From NCBI GenBank assembly GCA_017453465.1, contig JAFTEV010000043.1, positions 1-55,068 of the forward strand: a DNA stretch of 55,068 nt, read 5' to 3'. The notes below the pieces were generated by a model. It was not told where the DNA came from. It did no database searches and saw only the letters and a list, made by a program, of their open reading frames with translations. Source of the stretch: Bacteroidaceae bacterium. Lineage in GTDB: Bacteria > Bacteroidota > Bacteroidia > Bacteroidales > Bacteroidaceae. This document shows, piece by piece, positions 32,779-38,632 of this stretch; within the stretch, counting starts at the first letter, position 1, and each line of letters starts with the position of its first letter. The translations under genes were made by a program, and so were the position numbers.

Positions 32779-33096
32779 ATGAAACCCAAAAACGTGCTTG
32801 AGAGCATCAAACTAATGGCGGGAGAAATATTGCCCAAAGGCAGTTCTCTCTATCTTTATGGTTCCCGTGCTCGTGGAGATTATCACGATGACAGTGACTG
32901 GGATCTGCTTCTGTTGCTTGACAAACCCACGCTGGAACACGATGACTTTAGAAAATACTCCTATCCATTTGTGGAAATGGGGTGGAGCATGGGTGAGGAC
33001 ATTCGTCCACACGCCTATACAAAAAACGAATGGTACAACGGCCCACATTCCATGTTTTATTATAATGTGGAAGAAGACAAAAAGTTGATTGCATGA
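32779..33096 (+). CDS. MNT-type nucleotidyltransferase (antitoxin of an MNT/HEPN pair)
   Basis: A 105-residue minimal nucleotidyltransferase. The active-site pattern is clear: YGSRARGDYHDDSDWDLLLL, with GSxARG followed by DxD. In MNT/HEPN toxin-antitoxin systems this enzyme AMPylates and silences the HEPN ribonuclease. The stop codon overlaps the next start (ATGA), the normal arrangement. Here the partner is truncated, so the enzyme is probably an orphan. Length is normal for the family. Confidence 0.8.
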   Translation: MKPKNVLESIKLMAGEILPKGSSLYLYGSRARGDYHDDSDWDLLLLLDKPTLEHDDFRKYSYPFVEMGWSMGEDIRPHAYTKNEWYNGPHSMFYYNVEEDKKLIA

Positions 33097-33769: not shown

Positions 33770-34169
33770 ATGGAGAAAAAGATGAGCAGCGAAGAACTTC
33801 AATCAAGACGTGAGTTCTCGTAATTGTAAGGATTGTAATAATTCATGCAAAGAAACATGTAAAGGGCAATGCAAAACATCATGTACAGGTGGATGCAAAA
33901 CAGGTTGTTCTTCAACATGCAAAGATACGTGCTCTACAGGATGTAAAGATTCTTGTTATACCGGTTGTCAAGAAACTTGTACAACAGGATGCAAAGGAAC
34001 CTGCAAAACAGGATGTCAAAACAGCTGTACTACAGGATGTAAAGAAGGGTGCAAGGGGTTTTGCAAAGGAAGCTGTGGAAATAATTGTACTTCTTGTTTC
34101 GGTTCATGTATAGGAGAGTGTTATTTGAGTTGCATGGTTGGATGTAGAGGATGGGCATACCTTTTCTAA
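33770..34169 (+). pseudogene. CXXX-repeat peptide 1, Tat leader out of frame with the Cys-rich core
   Basis: The ATG at 33770 opens MEKKMSSEELQSRREFS and stops at 33821-33823. This is the n-region and RR of a twin-arginine leader like that of the next gene. The core lies in a different frame, open from 33786 and usable only from a GTG at 33810. It is 119 residues with 28 Cys, nearly all at every fourth position (CKDTCSTGCKDSCYTGC), ending GWAYLF. The leader's hydrophobic region is missing, and the core begins where the second Cys block of the next gene begins (NC.DC.NSCK). A deletion therefore probably fused leader to core out of frame. Either the gene is dead, or GTG initiation makes an unexported cytoplasmic peptide that the enzymes could still modify. 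Confidence 0.65.
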
Positions 34170-34212
34170 TTCTAAAATATCTCTATTATTTTTTATAACA
34201 ACAATTTAACAA

Positions 34213-35109
34213 ATGTATATGAAAAACAAATTAAACGAAGAACTTCAGACAAGACGTGAGTTCTTTAAGAAAGCGACAAAACGTTCTTTGCCATTTATTG
34301 GTGCAATAATAGTAGCTCCATCTATCATAATGACAACTCTTTCTTCTTGCGGATGTGATGATTGCGAAAACAGTTGTCAAGATAGTTGCAATGACACATG
34401 CAGCGAAGCATGTACGACTTCATGCTATGGTACGTGCGAAGGTTCTACTACAGCAGATCTGAATTGTTCCGATTGTACAAATTCATGTAAAGACACATGC
34501 AATGTTACCTGTACGGAAAGTTGTGGAAGTGATTGTACTGAAGGTTGCAAGGAGTCATGTAAAGACGGATGTTCGTCAACTTGTACTGGCGAATGTAAAG
34601 GTGGATGTTCAACAACATGCACAGGTGAATGCACAACAACTTGCACAAGTGGATGCAAGGGCGGATGTTCAACTTCGTGTACTGGTGGATGCGGTAGCAG
34701 TTGTTCTTCTAATTGTACAGGCGAATGCAAAGGTGAGTGTTCAACAACGTGTACTGGTGGATGCAAAGGCGGATGCTCAACATCATGTTCTGGCGGATGT
34801 ACGGGCGGATGCTCTACGGGATGCACGGGCGGATGCTCTGGTGGATGCTCTACGGGATGTTCGGGCGGATGCAAAGGTGGATGTTCAACAACATGTACCA
34901 GTACTTGTGCAGACGGATGTGATTATAGATGTACACGAAGTTGTGCTGATGATTGCTATTACGATTGTACAGGACAATGTACAACCACATGCTACTATTC
35001 TTGTACACGAAGTTGTGCTGATGATTGCACCTATAAATGTGATCAAGCTTGTCAAAATGCATGTGTTTATCATTGTGGCGCAAGTTGTAAGGGGGTAGCC
35101 TGGAGTTAA
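34213..35109 (+). CDS. CXXX-repeat peptide 2: Tat-targeted Cys-rich precursor
   Basis: A 298-residue precursor with 62 cysteines. Residues 1-45 form a twin-arginine leader: [14 protein letters not shown] (RR at 14-15), then the hydrophobic [19 protein letters not shown] at 43-46 resembles a lipobox, so Cys46 may be lipidated. A first Cys block (residues 46-73, Asp/Glu/Ser-rich), a short Cys-free spacer (EGSTTADL), and a second block of more than 200 residues follow. Cys occurs at nearly every fourth position, separated by small residues, Gly, Ser, Thr and Lys ([24 protein letters not shown]). Such spacing puts all Cys on one face of a helix or at regular intervals for cross-links or metal binding. 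It is followed 16 bases later by a radical SAM gene. Likely a RiPP-type substrate; the modification is unknown. Confidence 0.85.
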
Positions 35110-35125
35110 ATTGAATACTAAATAT

Positions 35126-36376
35126 ATGGCTAATATAAAAGAACATAGTTTAGGATGGCAATTAGGAATGGCGAAAAGCATTACCTTTATTGTCACCAAA
35201 GATTGTCAACTTGCTTGCAAATATTGTTATCTTGTAGGTAAAAACACAAAAGAACGAATGTCATGGGAAGTGGCAAAGCAAGCTATTGACTATATTCTTG
35301 ATAGAGAGGACGAATTCCGAGAAGAGTCTGTTACATGGGATTTCATAGGTGGAGAGCCTTTTTTAGAGATTGATTTGATTGATAAGATTTGTGACTATTT
35401 AAAGATTGAGATGTATCGTAGAGGGCATCATTGGTTTAACTCCTATCGTTTCTCTTTCTCTACCAATGGCATTAACTACCACACGGAAAAGGTACAGCAA
35501 TTCATTGAAAAGAATCATCGACATCTAAGCATAGGCATTACCATTGACGGAACGGAACGCAAGCACGACTTGAATCGTATCTGGAAAACTCCAGAGATGG
35601 AACTAGGCATTATGCCAAAGCCAGAAGAAGAACGCGGCTCTTATAAAGATGTGGTAAAGAACATTCCGTTTTGGCTGGAGCAGTTTCCTGGTGGTAGCAC
35701 GAAAGTAACCATCAGTTCGGCAGATATTCCTTATATCAAGGAAAGTGTATTGCACCTGTATTCTTTGGGCATCCATGAAGTGAATATCAATTGCGTATTT
35801 GAAGATGTATGGAAAGAGGGTGATGACAAGTTGTTTGAAGATCAACTGACAGAACTTGCCGATGCAATTATAGACAACAATCTTTATGAGGATAATGCTT
35901 GCTCGTTCTTCACGGAACATATAGGCAAGCCACAAGACCGCATTCGTGACAATCAGAACTGGTGCGGTGCAGGTAAGATGTTGGCTGTTGATGCCGCTGG
36001 CAACTTTTATCCTTGTACACGTTTTGCACAATATTCATTAAGAAGTAAACCTGCGTGGATTATTGGTAATATACATGATGGCATTGACCAAAACAAACTA
36101 CGACCGTTCTTGACCCTTGACCGCTGCACACAAAGCACAACAGAATGTATTGACTGCGAAGTAGCCAGTGGCTGTGCTTGGTGTCAAGGTGAAAACTACG
36201 ATGCTGCTGATACGCATACGGTTTACCAACGCTCTACCGCTATCTGCAAGATGCACAAAGCTCGTGTCCGTGCCAACAATTACTACTGGAACAAATTGTT
36301 CCGAAAACTAGAATTGGAAGGCAAGCAGGAAGAGTATGAGAGACAGAAAGCAAAAGTAAAAGACCCAACCTGTTGA
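35126..36376 (+). CDS. Radical SAM/SPASM peptide maturase for the CXXX-repeat peptide
   Basis: A 416-residue cytoplasmic enzyme expected to modify the Cys-rich precursor by radical chemistry. From the ATG at 35126, the 4Fe-4S/SAM motif CxxxCxxC is at Cys27, 31 and 34 (DCQLACKYCYL) and the GGEP motif at 75-78. A SPASM-type region follows, with Cys280, 297, 334, 341, 344, 350, 353 and 374 (WCGAGKMLAVDAAGNFYPCTRF; CIDCEVASGCAWC), enough for two auxiliary clusters. A TTG 15 bases upstream is in frame but leaves no room after the peptide stop. From memory this corresponds to the family 'radical SAM peptide maturase, CXXX-repeat target'. Thioether, C-C or epimerising chemistry are all possible. Confidence 0.9.
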   Translation: MANIKEHSLGWQLGMAKSITFIVTKDCQLACKYCYLVGKNTKERMSWEVAKQAIDYILDREDEFREESVTWDFIGGEPFLEIDLIDKICDYLKIEMYRRGHHWFNSYRFSFSTNGINYHTEKVQQFIEKNHRHLSIGITIDGTERKHDLNRIWKTPEMELGIMPKPEEERGSYKDVVKNIPFWLEQFPGGSTKVTISSADIPYIKESVLHLYSLGIHEVNINCVFEDVWKEGDDKLFEDQLTELADAIIDNNLYEDNACSFFTEHIGKPQDRIRDNQNWCGAGKMLAVDAAGNFYPCTRFAQYSLRSKPAWIIGNIHDGIDQNKLRPFLTLDRCTQSTTECIDCEVASGCAWCQGENYDAADTHTVYQRSTAICKMHKARVRANNYYWNKLFRKLELEGKQEEYERQKAKVKDPTC

Positions 36377-36380
36377 CATT

Positions 36381-37343
36381 ATGCTTACACACCTTATTAT
36401 ATTATTAGATGATACGAGTGTTTCGTATTGCCATTATAACCCCACACCAACCCTCCCCATAAAGAAGGGGGCAGAAACGAGAATGCCGTTGGATATTTTA
36501 CGAAAAGGTATTCTGTTTGCCATGAAGGAGAATCTGAATATTCAGTTTGTTTACCCTGACTATAATCTGCCGGCAACGTATGATGAGGTCATAGAATCTA
36601 TTGACCACACGAAGATAAAGCCTCAGGCACAAAGCAAAGATGCGGATGTCGTTGTATTGACAGATTGGAAGCAGAAGGATGTTGATGTGCAGGAAAATGT
36701 CGCATATGTTCTGCGTACTAGCAAGAATGAATTAAAAGAGAATCTGACTGCCATCAATTCTCTGTTAGAAAAGGTTCATCGATTGAACATTGTCATCACA
36801 GACGTGGCAGATTTTCAAGATGTAGATATGGATGATTATAATGCCATATTGGCAGAGCTTAGCGATTGCTTATTAGAACAATATAAAAAAGGGCGAGCTG
36901 TGCAGTTGAATTTACTGACTGACCGCATGATGTTGTCAGAAATGAACAACTGCAATGCGGGCGTAAACAACATCACGCTGGCTCCTAACGGCAAATTTTA
37001 TGTGTGTCCCGCATATTATTATGAGGATGTTGCAAATGATATTGGTAATTTGGAGAATGGGCCAAACATCAAGAATGCACAACTGTACAAACTTGACTAT
37101 GCGCCAATTTGTCGAATTTGTGATGCTTTCCATTGCAAGCGCTGTGTTTGGCAAAATCAACAGCTGACATTGGATTGCAATACGCCATCACATCAGCAAT
37201 GCGTGATGGCACATCTGGAACGTAATGCTTCACGCAAATTGTTGCAGCGAATGAAAGAAAGTGGTATCCGATTAAATGGTTACCAAGAAATTAAAGAAAT
37301 AGATTATTTAGACCCTTTTAATATAGTAAACAAATGGAAGTAA
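36381..37343 (+). CDS. SPASM-only partner protein ('CXXX repeat peptide maturase'-like)
   Basis: A 320-residue protein that starts 4 bases after the radical SAM gene. Its C-terminal half reads like a SPASM domain: Cys191 and 209 (NNCNAGVNNITLAPNGKFYVCP), then Cys244, 247, 252, 255, 266 and 274 (ICRICDAFHCKRC). The N-terminal half has no CxxxCxxC, so it cannot bind the radical SAM cluster and is probably a partner or scaffold that binds the substrate or auxiliary iron-sulfur clusters. Residues ~20-34 (NPTPTLPIKKGAETR) are encoded by a CCCTCCCC...GGGGG palindrome typical of intergenic repeats and may be an in-frame insertion. It overlaps the next gene by 10 bases. Confidence 0.8.
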   Translation: MLTHLIILLDDTSVSYCHYNPTPTLPIKKGAETRMPLDILRKGILFAMKENLNIQFVYPDYNLPATYDEVIESIDHTKIKPQAQSKDADVVVLTDWKQKDVDVQENVAYVLRTSKNELKENLTAINSLLEKVHRLNIVITDVADFQDVDMDDYNAILAELSDCLLEQYKKGRAVQLNLLTDRMMLSEMNNCNAGVNNITLAPNGKFYVCPAYYYEDVANDIGNLENGPNIKNAQLYKLDYAPICRICDAFHCKRCVWQNQQLTLDCNTPSHQQCVMAHLERNASRKLLQRMKESGIRLNGYQEIKEIDYLDPFNIVNKWK

Positions 37344-37618
37344 AAAAAATTGTCGGGCAAGTAACGCCCGAAGAACGTGCCGAGATTCAGGCATTGTTTG
37401 AACGTAAGAATGGTTTGACAGAGTTGGCAAAGATTGTAACGGCTGACAATGGTGAGCTATATGAAAAACTGGTGAAAGACATGGGTGAGACAGGCACCAA
37501 GTTTCAAGCATGGTGGGACGAAAAAGCCAAGAAATATGGTTGGGAAAGCCACCCCAAAGGAAACTGGGAGATTAATTTTCAAACAGCAGAAATTTCATTG
37601 GTTGTAAACGAAGCATAA
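37334..37618 (+). CDS. Small accessory protein of the CXXX-repeat system
   Basis: A 94-residue soluble, largely helical protein (MEVKKIVGQVTPEERAEIQA..., then WWDEKAKKYGWE). It has no cysteine and no membrane segment. Its place between the maturases and tatA, with overlaps at both ends, ties it to the same pathway. From memory it matches the family named 'CXXX repeat peptide modification system protein'. A role as a leader-binding or chaperone subunit, replacing the RRE domain of other RiPP systems, is only a guess. Confidence 0.7.
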   Translation: MEVKKIVGQVTPEERAEIQALFERKNGLTELAKIVTADNGELYEKLVKDMGETGTKFQAWWDEKAKKYGWESHPKGNWEINFQTAEISLVVNEA

Positions 37619-37860
37619 TGATGATTCCTCTATTCATTGGAACAACAGAATTGATGCTTATTGCAGGTATGGCATTACTGCTGTTTGGTGGCAAGAAGCT
37701 ACCCGAAATGATGCGTGGCATGGGTAAAGGTGTGAATGAGTTCAAAAAGGGAATGCGTGAAGTGTCTGAACCTATCTCTGAAGTAAAAGAAGTAATCAAG
37801 GAAGTCACAGATTTATCTTCAGAGGACGAAACTCGTACACCAGAAACGAATGCCCAGTAA
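37618..37860 (+). CDS. tatA: Twin-arginine translocase subunit TatA
   Basis: An 80-residue pore-forming subunit of the Tat system. It has one N-terminal membrane helix (FIGTTELMLIAGMALLLFGG), the conserved hinge and amphipathic helix FGGKKLPEMMRGMGKGVNEF, and an acidic C-terminal tail. The start codon overlaps the previous stop (TAATG) and the stop overlaps the tatC start by 11 bases. Its position in the operon suggests that it serves the Cys-rich peptide directly. No separate tatB is present, which is common outside proteobacteria. Confidence 0.93.
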   Translation: MMIPLFIGTTELMLIAGMALLLFGGKKLPEMMRGMGKGVNEFKKGMREVSEPISEVKEVIKEVTDLSSEDETRTPETNAQ

Positions 37861-38632
37861 CAAATCCAACAATGAGTTGCTCACATTTGGCGGACACCTT
37901 GAAGTGCTCCGCCAAATGTTGTTCCGCATTATCGTGGTGGCAGGTGCGATTACCATAGTTGTGTTCTGCTTCAAAGACACGACATGGCAGTTGCTGCTGG
38001 CTCCCAGTGAATGGGACTTTGTGACTTATCGGCTGCTGGAGGATGTGATGCAGGCGATGGGGTTTGACTTCCGTTTTGAGGAATATCATGTGGAGTTGAT
38101 TGCTACCGACCTGTCGAGCCAGTTCATGACGCACGTCACCACGGCGGTGTATTTAGGACTGCTTGGGGCATCGCCCTACATCCTGTATGAGCTGTTCAGG
38201 TTTATCTCTCCTGCTTTGTACGAGAATGAGCGGAAGTATTCGGTACAGGTGGCTGGAGTGATTTATGTGCTCTTTATCGTGGGCGTACTGATGTCGTACT
38301 ATGTGCTGTTCCCCATTTCGTTTCGGTTTCTCGGCACTTACAGCGTGGCGGAGCGTGTACACAGCACCATCACATTAGATTCATATATCAGCACCTTCAC
38401 ATCCCTGACACTCATCATGGGCGTGGTGTTCCAGTTGCCTGTTATTGCGTTTTTCTTGGGAAAGATGGGTGTGGTCACGGCAGAAATGTTGTCGCAGTAC
38501 CGCAAACACGCCCTGGTTGTCATCATGTTGGTGGCTGCCATCATTACGCCACCCGACCTGATGACGTTGGTGCTGGTGACGGTTCCGCTTTACTTGCTTT
38601 ATGAGGTCAGCATCTTGACAATTAATAATTAG
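37850..38632 (+). CDS. tatC: Twin-arginine translocase subunit TatC
   Basis: A 260-residue polytopic membrane protein that recognises twin-arginine leaders. The conserved cytoplasmic FGGHLEVLRQMLFR start and ASPYILYELFRFISPALYENERK loop are present, with six membrane segments. The last residues (ILTINN) are encoded by the left edge of an ATTCACAA-type hairpin repeat, so the repeat has supplied or trimmed the C-terminus. Base composition returns towards that of the flanking genome within this gene. That suggests tatC may be native while the peptide and maturase genes are acquired; this is by eye only. Confidence 0.93.
   Translation: MPSNKSNNELLTFGGHLEVLRQMLFRIIVVAGAITIVVFCFKDTTWQLLLAPSEWDFVTYRLLEDVMQAMGFDFRFEEYHVELIATDLSSQFMTHVTTAVYLGLLGASPYILYELFRFISPALYENERKYSVQVAGVIYVLFIVGVLMSYYVLFPISFRFLGTYSVAERVHSTITLDSYISTFTSLTLIMGVVFQLPVIAFFLGKMGVVTAEMLSQYRKHALVVIMLVAAIITPPDLMTLVLVTVPLYLLYEVSILTINN

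Follow-up and report, generated by a model that had tools for sequence, protein, structure and literature searches.

Does an operon that sets a precursor with a cysteine at every fourth residue beside a radical S-adenosylmethionine (SAM) enzyme and genes of the twin-arginine translocation (Tat) pathway make a small secreted antibiotic, or does it modify and export a surface protein? This question is raised by the CXXX-repeat system at positions 33,770 to 38,632 of the window, i.e., the whole 55,068-nucleotide stretch analyzed here (contig JAFTEV010000043.1 of the Bacteroidaceae bacterium assembly GCA_017453465.1, forward strand). The surface protein is the answer favored here, with a probability of about 0.5 for the reading as a whole, and it is highly probable that the enzymes act on the cysteine array and that Tat exports this array. 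The locus truly belongs to a system defined in databases, and the mechanism proposed for it is coherent and testable. Databases already list the gene families; novelty would lie in the mechanism. No published experiment or paper on the CXXX-repeat system was found in a search of open-access papers, a scope outside which most subscription journals lie; an earlier account in other sources, e.g., by Haft and Basu (2011), may exist. The host contig is contig 21 of a 3.16-Mb assembly (completeness 85%, contamination 6%), and a search of this genome found no 16S rRNA.

The system is complete, with cysteine-array precursor, maturase, partner, helper, TatA and TatC following each other on the forward strand in that order, and the successive gaps or overlaps of 16, 4, 10, 1 and 11 bases bear out the tightly packed operon (1–16 bases between genes) described in an earlier sequence-only reading of this DNA. 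All five genes downstream of the precursors pass the cut-offs of curated families: the radical SAM/SPASM maturase (35,126 to 36,376, starting with ATG and with TTG at 35,111 as alternative upstream start) scored 627.1 bits with TIGR04115 (cut-off 350), the SPASM-only partner (36,381 to 37,343) 240.4 bits with TIGR04119 (cut-off 150), the helper of 94 amino acids (37,334 to 37,618) 89.5 bits with TIGR04116 (cut-off 50), TatA (37,618 to 37,860; also PF02416) 60.6 bits with TIGR01411 (cut-off 53.9), and TatC (37,850 to 38,632), assigned to an operon lineage by the tree described below, 162.9 bits with TIGR00945 (cut-off 132.7). The NCBIfam profile search thus agrees with what the sequence-only reading had proposed for these genes, including the family numbers TIGR04115, TIGR04116 and TIGR04119 that it had named. 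The NCBIfam system comprises five models (TIGR04114, TIGR04115, TIGR04116, TIGR04117 and TIGR04119) and contains neither TatA nor TatC; the window maturase, partner, helper and first array pass the respective cut-offs, whereas the long precursor remains below those of TIGR04117 (40.7 vs. 50 bits) and TIGR04114 (17.0 vs. 20 bits).

This long precursor, the second of two cysteine-rich peptides at the locus (34,213 to 35,109), has 298 amino acids and 62 Cys, and combines a Tat-type leader and a lipobox-like site with a CXXX array in two runs, in which 57 of 61 Cys-Cys spacings equal four. Since spacing-4 pairs averaged 14.8 and never exceeded 26 in 20,000 shuffles of the precursor core, a chance origin of the repeat is ruled out, and the earlier description of this protein is borne out. 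The same does not hold for the first peptide, which had been counted as a second precursor of this type. The frame from ATG 33,770, MEKKMSSEELQSRREFS, terminates at 33,823 after RREFS and is a leader remnant with the twin arginine, without a hydrophobic stretch; the array of 28 Cys (33,810 to 34,169, 25 of 27 spacings equal to four, 29.1 bits with TIGR04114 at a cut-off of 20) lies in a different frame. The displaced frame of this array and its lack of a hydrophobic signal mean that, in the present assembly, the first peptide gene is broken. In Xylanibacter rarus, a mosaic precursor (L072, 7,739 to 8,922) is also split over two frames as assembled and looks broken like the first peptide of the window; slippage or assembly error may be promoted by repeats. 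In 2684 CXXXC units, a count that includes some unrelated frames among 164 Cys-rich open reading frames (ORFs), S, T or K together occupied 49% of the C+1 positions, Gly 35% of the C+2 positions and S, G, T, N or A about 81% of the C+3 positions, and Cys was the sole invariant array residue. Array runs often open with a CXXC step.

Tat leaders follow an SRRxFLK-like consensus. The leader of the 298-residue precursor has RR at positions 14–15 within TRREFFKK, including FFK, with a hydrophobic stretch following this motif, and LP at positions 26–27, as expected from the twin-arginine leader assigned earlier. The 164 Cys-rich ORFs were obtained with a loose rule, and 137 of them, spread over 80 of 86 loci, contain RRx[FL][FLI]; by eye, the other 27 are mostly unrelated frames and not arrays, and seven of the 27 are real arrays with a leader that is missing, cut off or altered (the first peptide of the window, L045, L057, L072, L085, L089 and L118). 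Alignment of the 137 leaders on RR showed Phe at +3 and +4 in 96% each, which partly reflects the selection rule, Lys or Arg at +5 in 97% and, unexpectedly, Leu at +12 in 85% and Pro at +13 in 91%. In a second, differently built set, Pro was present at +13 in 116 of 127 CXXX leaders as compared to none of three other Tat-like leaders, a control that is too small to carry weight and of which by eye one looks genuine. Furthermore, three relatives (L006–L008, seen with wider surroundings in L035–L037) encode precursors with five Cys, next to a gene for a protein with ABC_membrane and ABC_tran domains, with no Tat genes and no detectable helper, and all three precursors lack RR and keep (R/K)KTLPG. 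Because Leu-Pro is kept where RR is lost, one leader is perhaps read by both the maturase and Tat; in the simplest reading, Tat would use RRxFFK and the maturase would use the Leu-Pro segment, which yields a sharp prediction on the part of the leader that the enzyme reads.

The TatAC pair of the operon is not the only Tat of the genome, a possibility ruled out by one further, different TatC elsewhere. Out of 80 loci, 60 could be tested for adjacent genes, i.e., extended for 2.5 kb or more beyond whichever of partner and helper comes last (L062, the contig of which ends just after the maturase, was dropped); partner and helper were found in all 60, TatA in 47, TatC in 44, and TatA together with TatC in 44. 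In a tree of 87 TatCs, which carried long-branch warnings and had not reached settled bootstrap values, 51 of 56 operon copies and the orphan second TatC of the genome G414 formed one branch (100/98), apart from the 18 housekeeping TatCs of the genus to which the window belongs (100/99). A second full- or near-full-length TatC was present in three of 41 near genomes, in the operon in G000 and G396 and in a genome with no partner-family match in G414; G407 has a 32-residue TatC fragment. The orphan copy of G414 (L164, 7,432 to 8,106) is of the operon type in a congener lacking a TIGR04119 match, and is possibly the relic of a lost system. Over the 55 loci holding all five operon proteins, the distances of these proteins correlated with r between 0.27 and 0.69, with at most 1 in 2000 permutations as high; this would fit a unit that is inherited together, and shared species history gives the same pattern. 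The ratio of non-synonymous to synonymous substitution rates (dN/dS) was not computable, as synonymous sites were saturated in 15 of 16 comparisons.

The system is recurrent and patchy. Among 395 genomes drawn from the phylum, six, the window's own included, exceeded the TIGR04115 cut-off. A scan of named genome contigs returned 371 related stretches, and the best 80 of these (L040–L119) are nearly all labeled Bacteroidales or sub-groups, many from ruminant gut samples; three (L053, L083 and L099) carry labels of Clostridium, Clostridia or Lachnospiraceae metagenome-assembled genomes (MAGs), and a few others are labeled Bacteroidia or bacterium. Strain entries that are not labeled as MAGs are also among the carriers, which makes the system directly testable: Bacteroides congonensis (L067, with a short precursor of 110 amino acids and 13 Cys), Xylanibacter rarus, Xylanibacter caecicola and Leyella stercorea. 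Of the 41 near genomes, three exceeded the cut-off of the partner family (G000, G396 and G412; G418 matched below cut-off), and a precursor match (TIGR04117, E ≤ 0.001, all below cut-off) was found in the same three and in none of the other 38, with the maturase beside the precursor in G396 and G412. Because the same three genomes hold both, precursor and enzymes appear to travel together, patchily within the genus, and a peptide widespread without the enzymes, which had been regarded as incompatible with maturation, was not seen in these 41 genomes. G396 has two CXXX systems (L161 and L162), with TatAC seen with one and the contig ending after the helper in the other. An apparent internal stop in the G412 precursor was rejected, since it precedes the start codon of an intact frame of 172 amino acids. 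Scans of 65 genomes of one genus for the non-Tat kind and of 13 genomes of another family returned the same three systems and the same two systems with a fused partner, respectively.

Where does the product go, and is it a peptide at all? Maturases of the radical SAM/SPASM type adjoining Cys-rich precursors make sactipeptides and ranthipeptides (available text of PMC9413430 and PMC10352776), and an improbable alternative is therefore that a thioether-type modification and Tat export are correctly proposed and that the product is a bioactive peptide (bacteriocin or signal) that a protease sets free, in the manner of classical ribosomally synthesized and post-translationally modified peptides (RiPPs). 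The short five-Cys precursors beside an ABC transporter in three relatives and the fact that many precursors are about 95–140 residues long would suit such a product. By contrast, the window precursor with its 298 residues has a lipobox-like LSSC ending at Cys46, the operon contains no protease gene, and neither a protease nor an immunity gene was recognized in the seven similarity clusters of neighboring genes (ORFs of at least 80 amino acids, clusters in at least four loci, judged by eye and with five Pfam scans). In ortholog pairs with more than 60% identity (n = 3, from four locus pairs), Cys columns were changed in 0 of 77 cases and other columns in 55 of 400, and one pair shows a length difference of 16 residues, the equivalent of exactly four repeats. 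In this small sample, the array seems free to vary in length with every Cys kept, as expected of a structural rod, and such whole-repeat variation speaks against a released peptide, as do four of the 137 precursors (L040, L041, L043 and L087) in which a FISUMP-like insert of 217–232 residues separates two arrays.

The surface location suggested by the sequence-only reading is supported by several observations. The four inserts share homology with one another and with protein domains encoded at nine other loci, at most 124 bases from an operon gene in seven (L042, L044, L050, L055, L070, L095 and L113) and 4–6 kb off in two (L059 and L073), and the lipobox-like pattern occurs in 6 of the 11 proteins with such a domain at these nine loci. 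Pfam Fib_succ_major or Lcl_C was detected weakly in the L040 insert (21.8 bits, cut-off 33.9) and not in those of L041, L043 and L087; the L113 neighbor protein exceeded the Lcl_C cut-off (35.2 vs. 34.9 bits), and a precursor of G396 has a different insert to which Pfam gave no name. Fib_succ_major and the related DUF1566 are reported as targets of diversity-generating retroelements, and one such target is a lipoprotein (available part of PMC4159848); no reverse transcriptase was recognized by eye among the larger ORFs of five loci, for which a family search was not made. Of the 137 leaders, 73 show the lipobox-like pattern, in many cases with acidic residues behind it (SKDDE, EIDEP, GGDDDD), and in the window precursor LSSC is followed by GCDDCE with Asp at +4 and +5. 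The lipoprotein export signal (LES) of Bacteroidetes surface lipoproteins similarly places acidic residues just after the lipobox Cys, with K-(D/E)2 and SDDDD as signals, but the available text of PMC5080379 does not describe these lipoproteins as Tat-exported or modified by radical SAM enzymes, whereas both are proposed for CXXX precursors. Lipobox-like sites with acidic residues, mosaic precursors and the reported retroelement targets together speak for a surface scaffold.

The maturase has the CX3CX2C motif and seven SPASM cysteines (Cys285, 302, 346, 349, 355, 358 and 379) that are present in each of 86 aligned rows. The radical SAM/SPASM assignment of the sequence-only reading is confirmed, and its eight SPASM-type cysteines reduce to these seven invariant ones, Cys264 being present in 84 of 86 rows. 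The best solved relative was PDB 5wgg (E 2e-20; query residues 19–387 with chain residues 94–443), barrel and SPASM domain being aligned and the seven SPASM cysteines in register. We take 5wgg and 5why to be CteB, of which the part preceding the barrel is presumably a leader-binding domain and the substrate presumably a small peptide. Ahead of the aligned part lie 93 residues in the solved chain as compared to 18 in the window maturase, and because the alignment begins at query residue 19 and chain residue 94, roughly 90 pre-barrel residues are missing from the latter. In the partner, eight cysteines (Cys17, 191, 209, 244, 247, 252, 255 and 274, i.e., seven SPASM cysteines and Cys17) are invariant in 65 of 65 rows and CX3CX2C occurs in none of the 65 sequences, which is in accordance with the earlier view of a second protein with SPASM cysteines only. 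Profile-profile comparison aligned the partner with the maturase (probability 90, E 1.6e-6, partner residues 119–259), so that the former looks like a degenerate paralogue that has kept the auxiliary-cluster domain. For the helper, a profile search against solved structures gave no convincing relative (best E 0.34). In two genomes of another family (L033 and L034), a single frame of 510 amino acids each encodes the partner with the helper fused to its C-terminus, which argues for joint action of the two. In L092 (12,138 to 12,984), partner, helper and TatA are partly duplicated between TatA and TatC, and a further precursor follows. For PapB, the return of electrons between clusters was concluded to be intermolecular, possibly involving redox proteins (available part of PMC10470005). 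By analogy, the partner could be an electron shuttle, with substrate holding as the alternative.

As to the chemistry, the next NCBIfam family for the maturase was PapB (NF047865, 189.3 bits, below the cut-off of 340). PapB installs six thioethers in CX3D/E motifs, including in-line links, and the available text on this ranthipeptide system (PMC9413430) mentions neither a SPASM-only partner nor Tat, whereas the window operon has both. PapB joins Cys to Asp or Glu; in the CXXX arrays, by contrast, the next Cys stands at C+4 and acidic residues are rare. The match to CefB, the Cys-every-fifth maturase (NF038107), was weak (50.9 vs. 600 bits); judging by the family name, its substrate is a cysteine array as well, with a different spacing. 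The available text of PMC10352776 on Bacteroidales RiPPs contains no mention of Tat, CXXX, Cys-rich or TIGR041. Thioether formation, to which homology to thioether-forming maturases points, is given roughly even odds. SPASM enzymes catalyze many reactions. Together with Cys as the sole invariant array residue and an acceptor position that is never fixed, this leaves some room for an unlikely second alternative, in which another cysteine modification (e.g., epimerization, alpha-carbon links, oxidation or Cys-Cys links) takes the place of the chain of thioether staples and Tat export and the surface role are unchanged; against it stands that PapB and CteB, the best-scoring relatives with known chemistry, form Cys thioethers. 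Nothing that speaks for metal loading or redox activity, two properties raised by the sequence-only reading, was found for the product, although no direct test of either was made. Very improbable is an array of unmodified thiols to which metal or Fe-S clusters bind in the cytoplasm while the radical SAM enzyme acts elsewhere and Tat, classically used for cofactor-loaded proteins, exports a metal-loaded fold, since its metallothionein-like Cys density is offset by seven neighbor clusters in which no metal-related gene was recognized, by the co-occurrence of array and partner family across the 41 near genomes and by a CXXX spacing filled with G/S/T that to our knowledge matches no metal motif.

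Following this, we propose for the modified surface protein that recognition of its leader would take place in the cytoplasm and use the Leu-Pro segment as docking site; helper and partner would probably mediate this step, given that the N-terminal extension of the solved relative is absent from the maturase. The maturase would then abstract hydrogen from residues between the cysteines, so that each Cys sulfur would be joined to a nearby carbon (thioether, −2 Da each), and would proceed along the array, with the SPASM-only partner as substrate holder or as route of electron return between turnovers. The stapled, pre-folded chain would exit via the operon TatAC, directed by RRxFFK of the same leader, be lipidated at the lipobox Cys and be taken to the outer surface, as the acidic residues after this Cys suggest. 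There, the rigid array might form a surface stalk or coat, holding FISUMP-like domains in some relatives; this stalk role is tentative and rated somewhat below the thioether chemistry. The full version, taken as a whole, is unlikely, namely that the signal peptide is read twice, the Leu-Pro by a maturase with a catalytically dead, cluster-bearing twin as shuttle and the RRxFFK by a co-inherited private Tat, that up to 61 Cys per chain are stapled before export, and that length-tunable thioether rods anchor ligand-binding domains on the surface of gut Bacteroidales, a bacterial scaffold that RiPP enzymes would have cross-linked after translation.

Several observations weigh against this proposal. 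The claim of a private Tat stands insofar as a second, different TatC exists elsewhere and 51 of 56 operon TatCs share a branch; five others (L081, L095, L103, L111 and L114) fall outside it, and the unsettled state of the tree counts here as well. Likewise, the association of tatAC with these genes, suggested earlier as a check, holds in the 44 loci given above and fails in 16 of 60, three with TatA alone (L040, L041 and L050) and thirteen with neither, of which 12 have precursors that keep RR (that of L057 is cut). The system of the congener G412 has an RR leader and no adjacent Tat genes, with 8 kb downstream, and TatC was found nowhere in this 77%-complete assembly; the fused-partner loci L033 and L034 also have RR leaders and no Tat genes nearby. 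The conservation of Leu-Pro could come from common ancestry. The simple lipobox pattern is missing in 64 of 137 leaders, and some products are therefore likely periplasmic. Asp and Glu together make up 6.9, 7.9 and 6.3% at C+1, C+2 and C+3, so that the acceptor residue is nowhere fixed, and because there is no fixed acceptor and acidic residues amount to 6–8% per X position, the Cys-Asp rule of PapB is not transferable. No modified product is known.

If the proposal is true, RiPP-type radical chemistry builds long surface structures and not small peptides alone, and these bacteria would retain their second Tat translocase because a folded, cross-linked chain has to be exported.

Around the operons, one neighbor cluster comprises proteins encoded near the operon on the same strand in 14 loci (e.g., L076, 6,965 to 8,521, and L067, 8,083 to 8,631); a C-terminal motif resembling (E)FGPGxR(Y/W)KxF recurs in several of them, and an SH3_3 domain was found in the representative that was scanned. 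In the window, a small nucleotidyltransferase gene with a weak match to MntA-type antitoxins (30.8 bits, cut-off 60) lies just 5' of the operon at 32,779 to 33,096.

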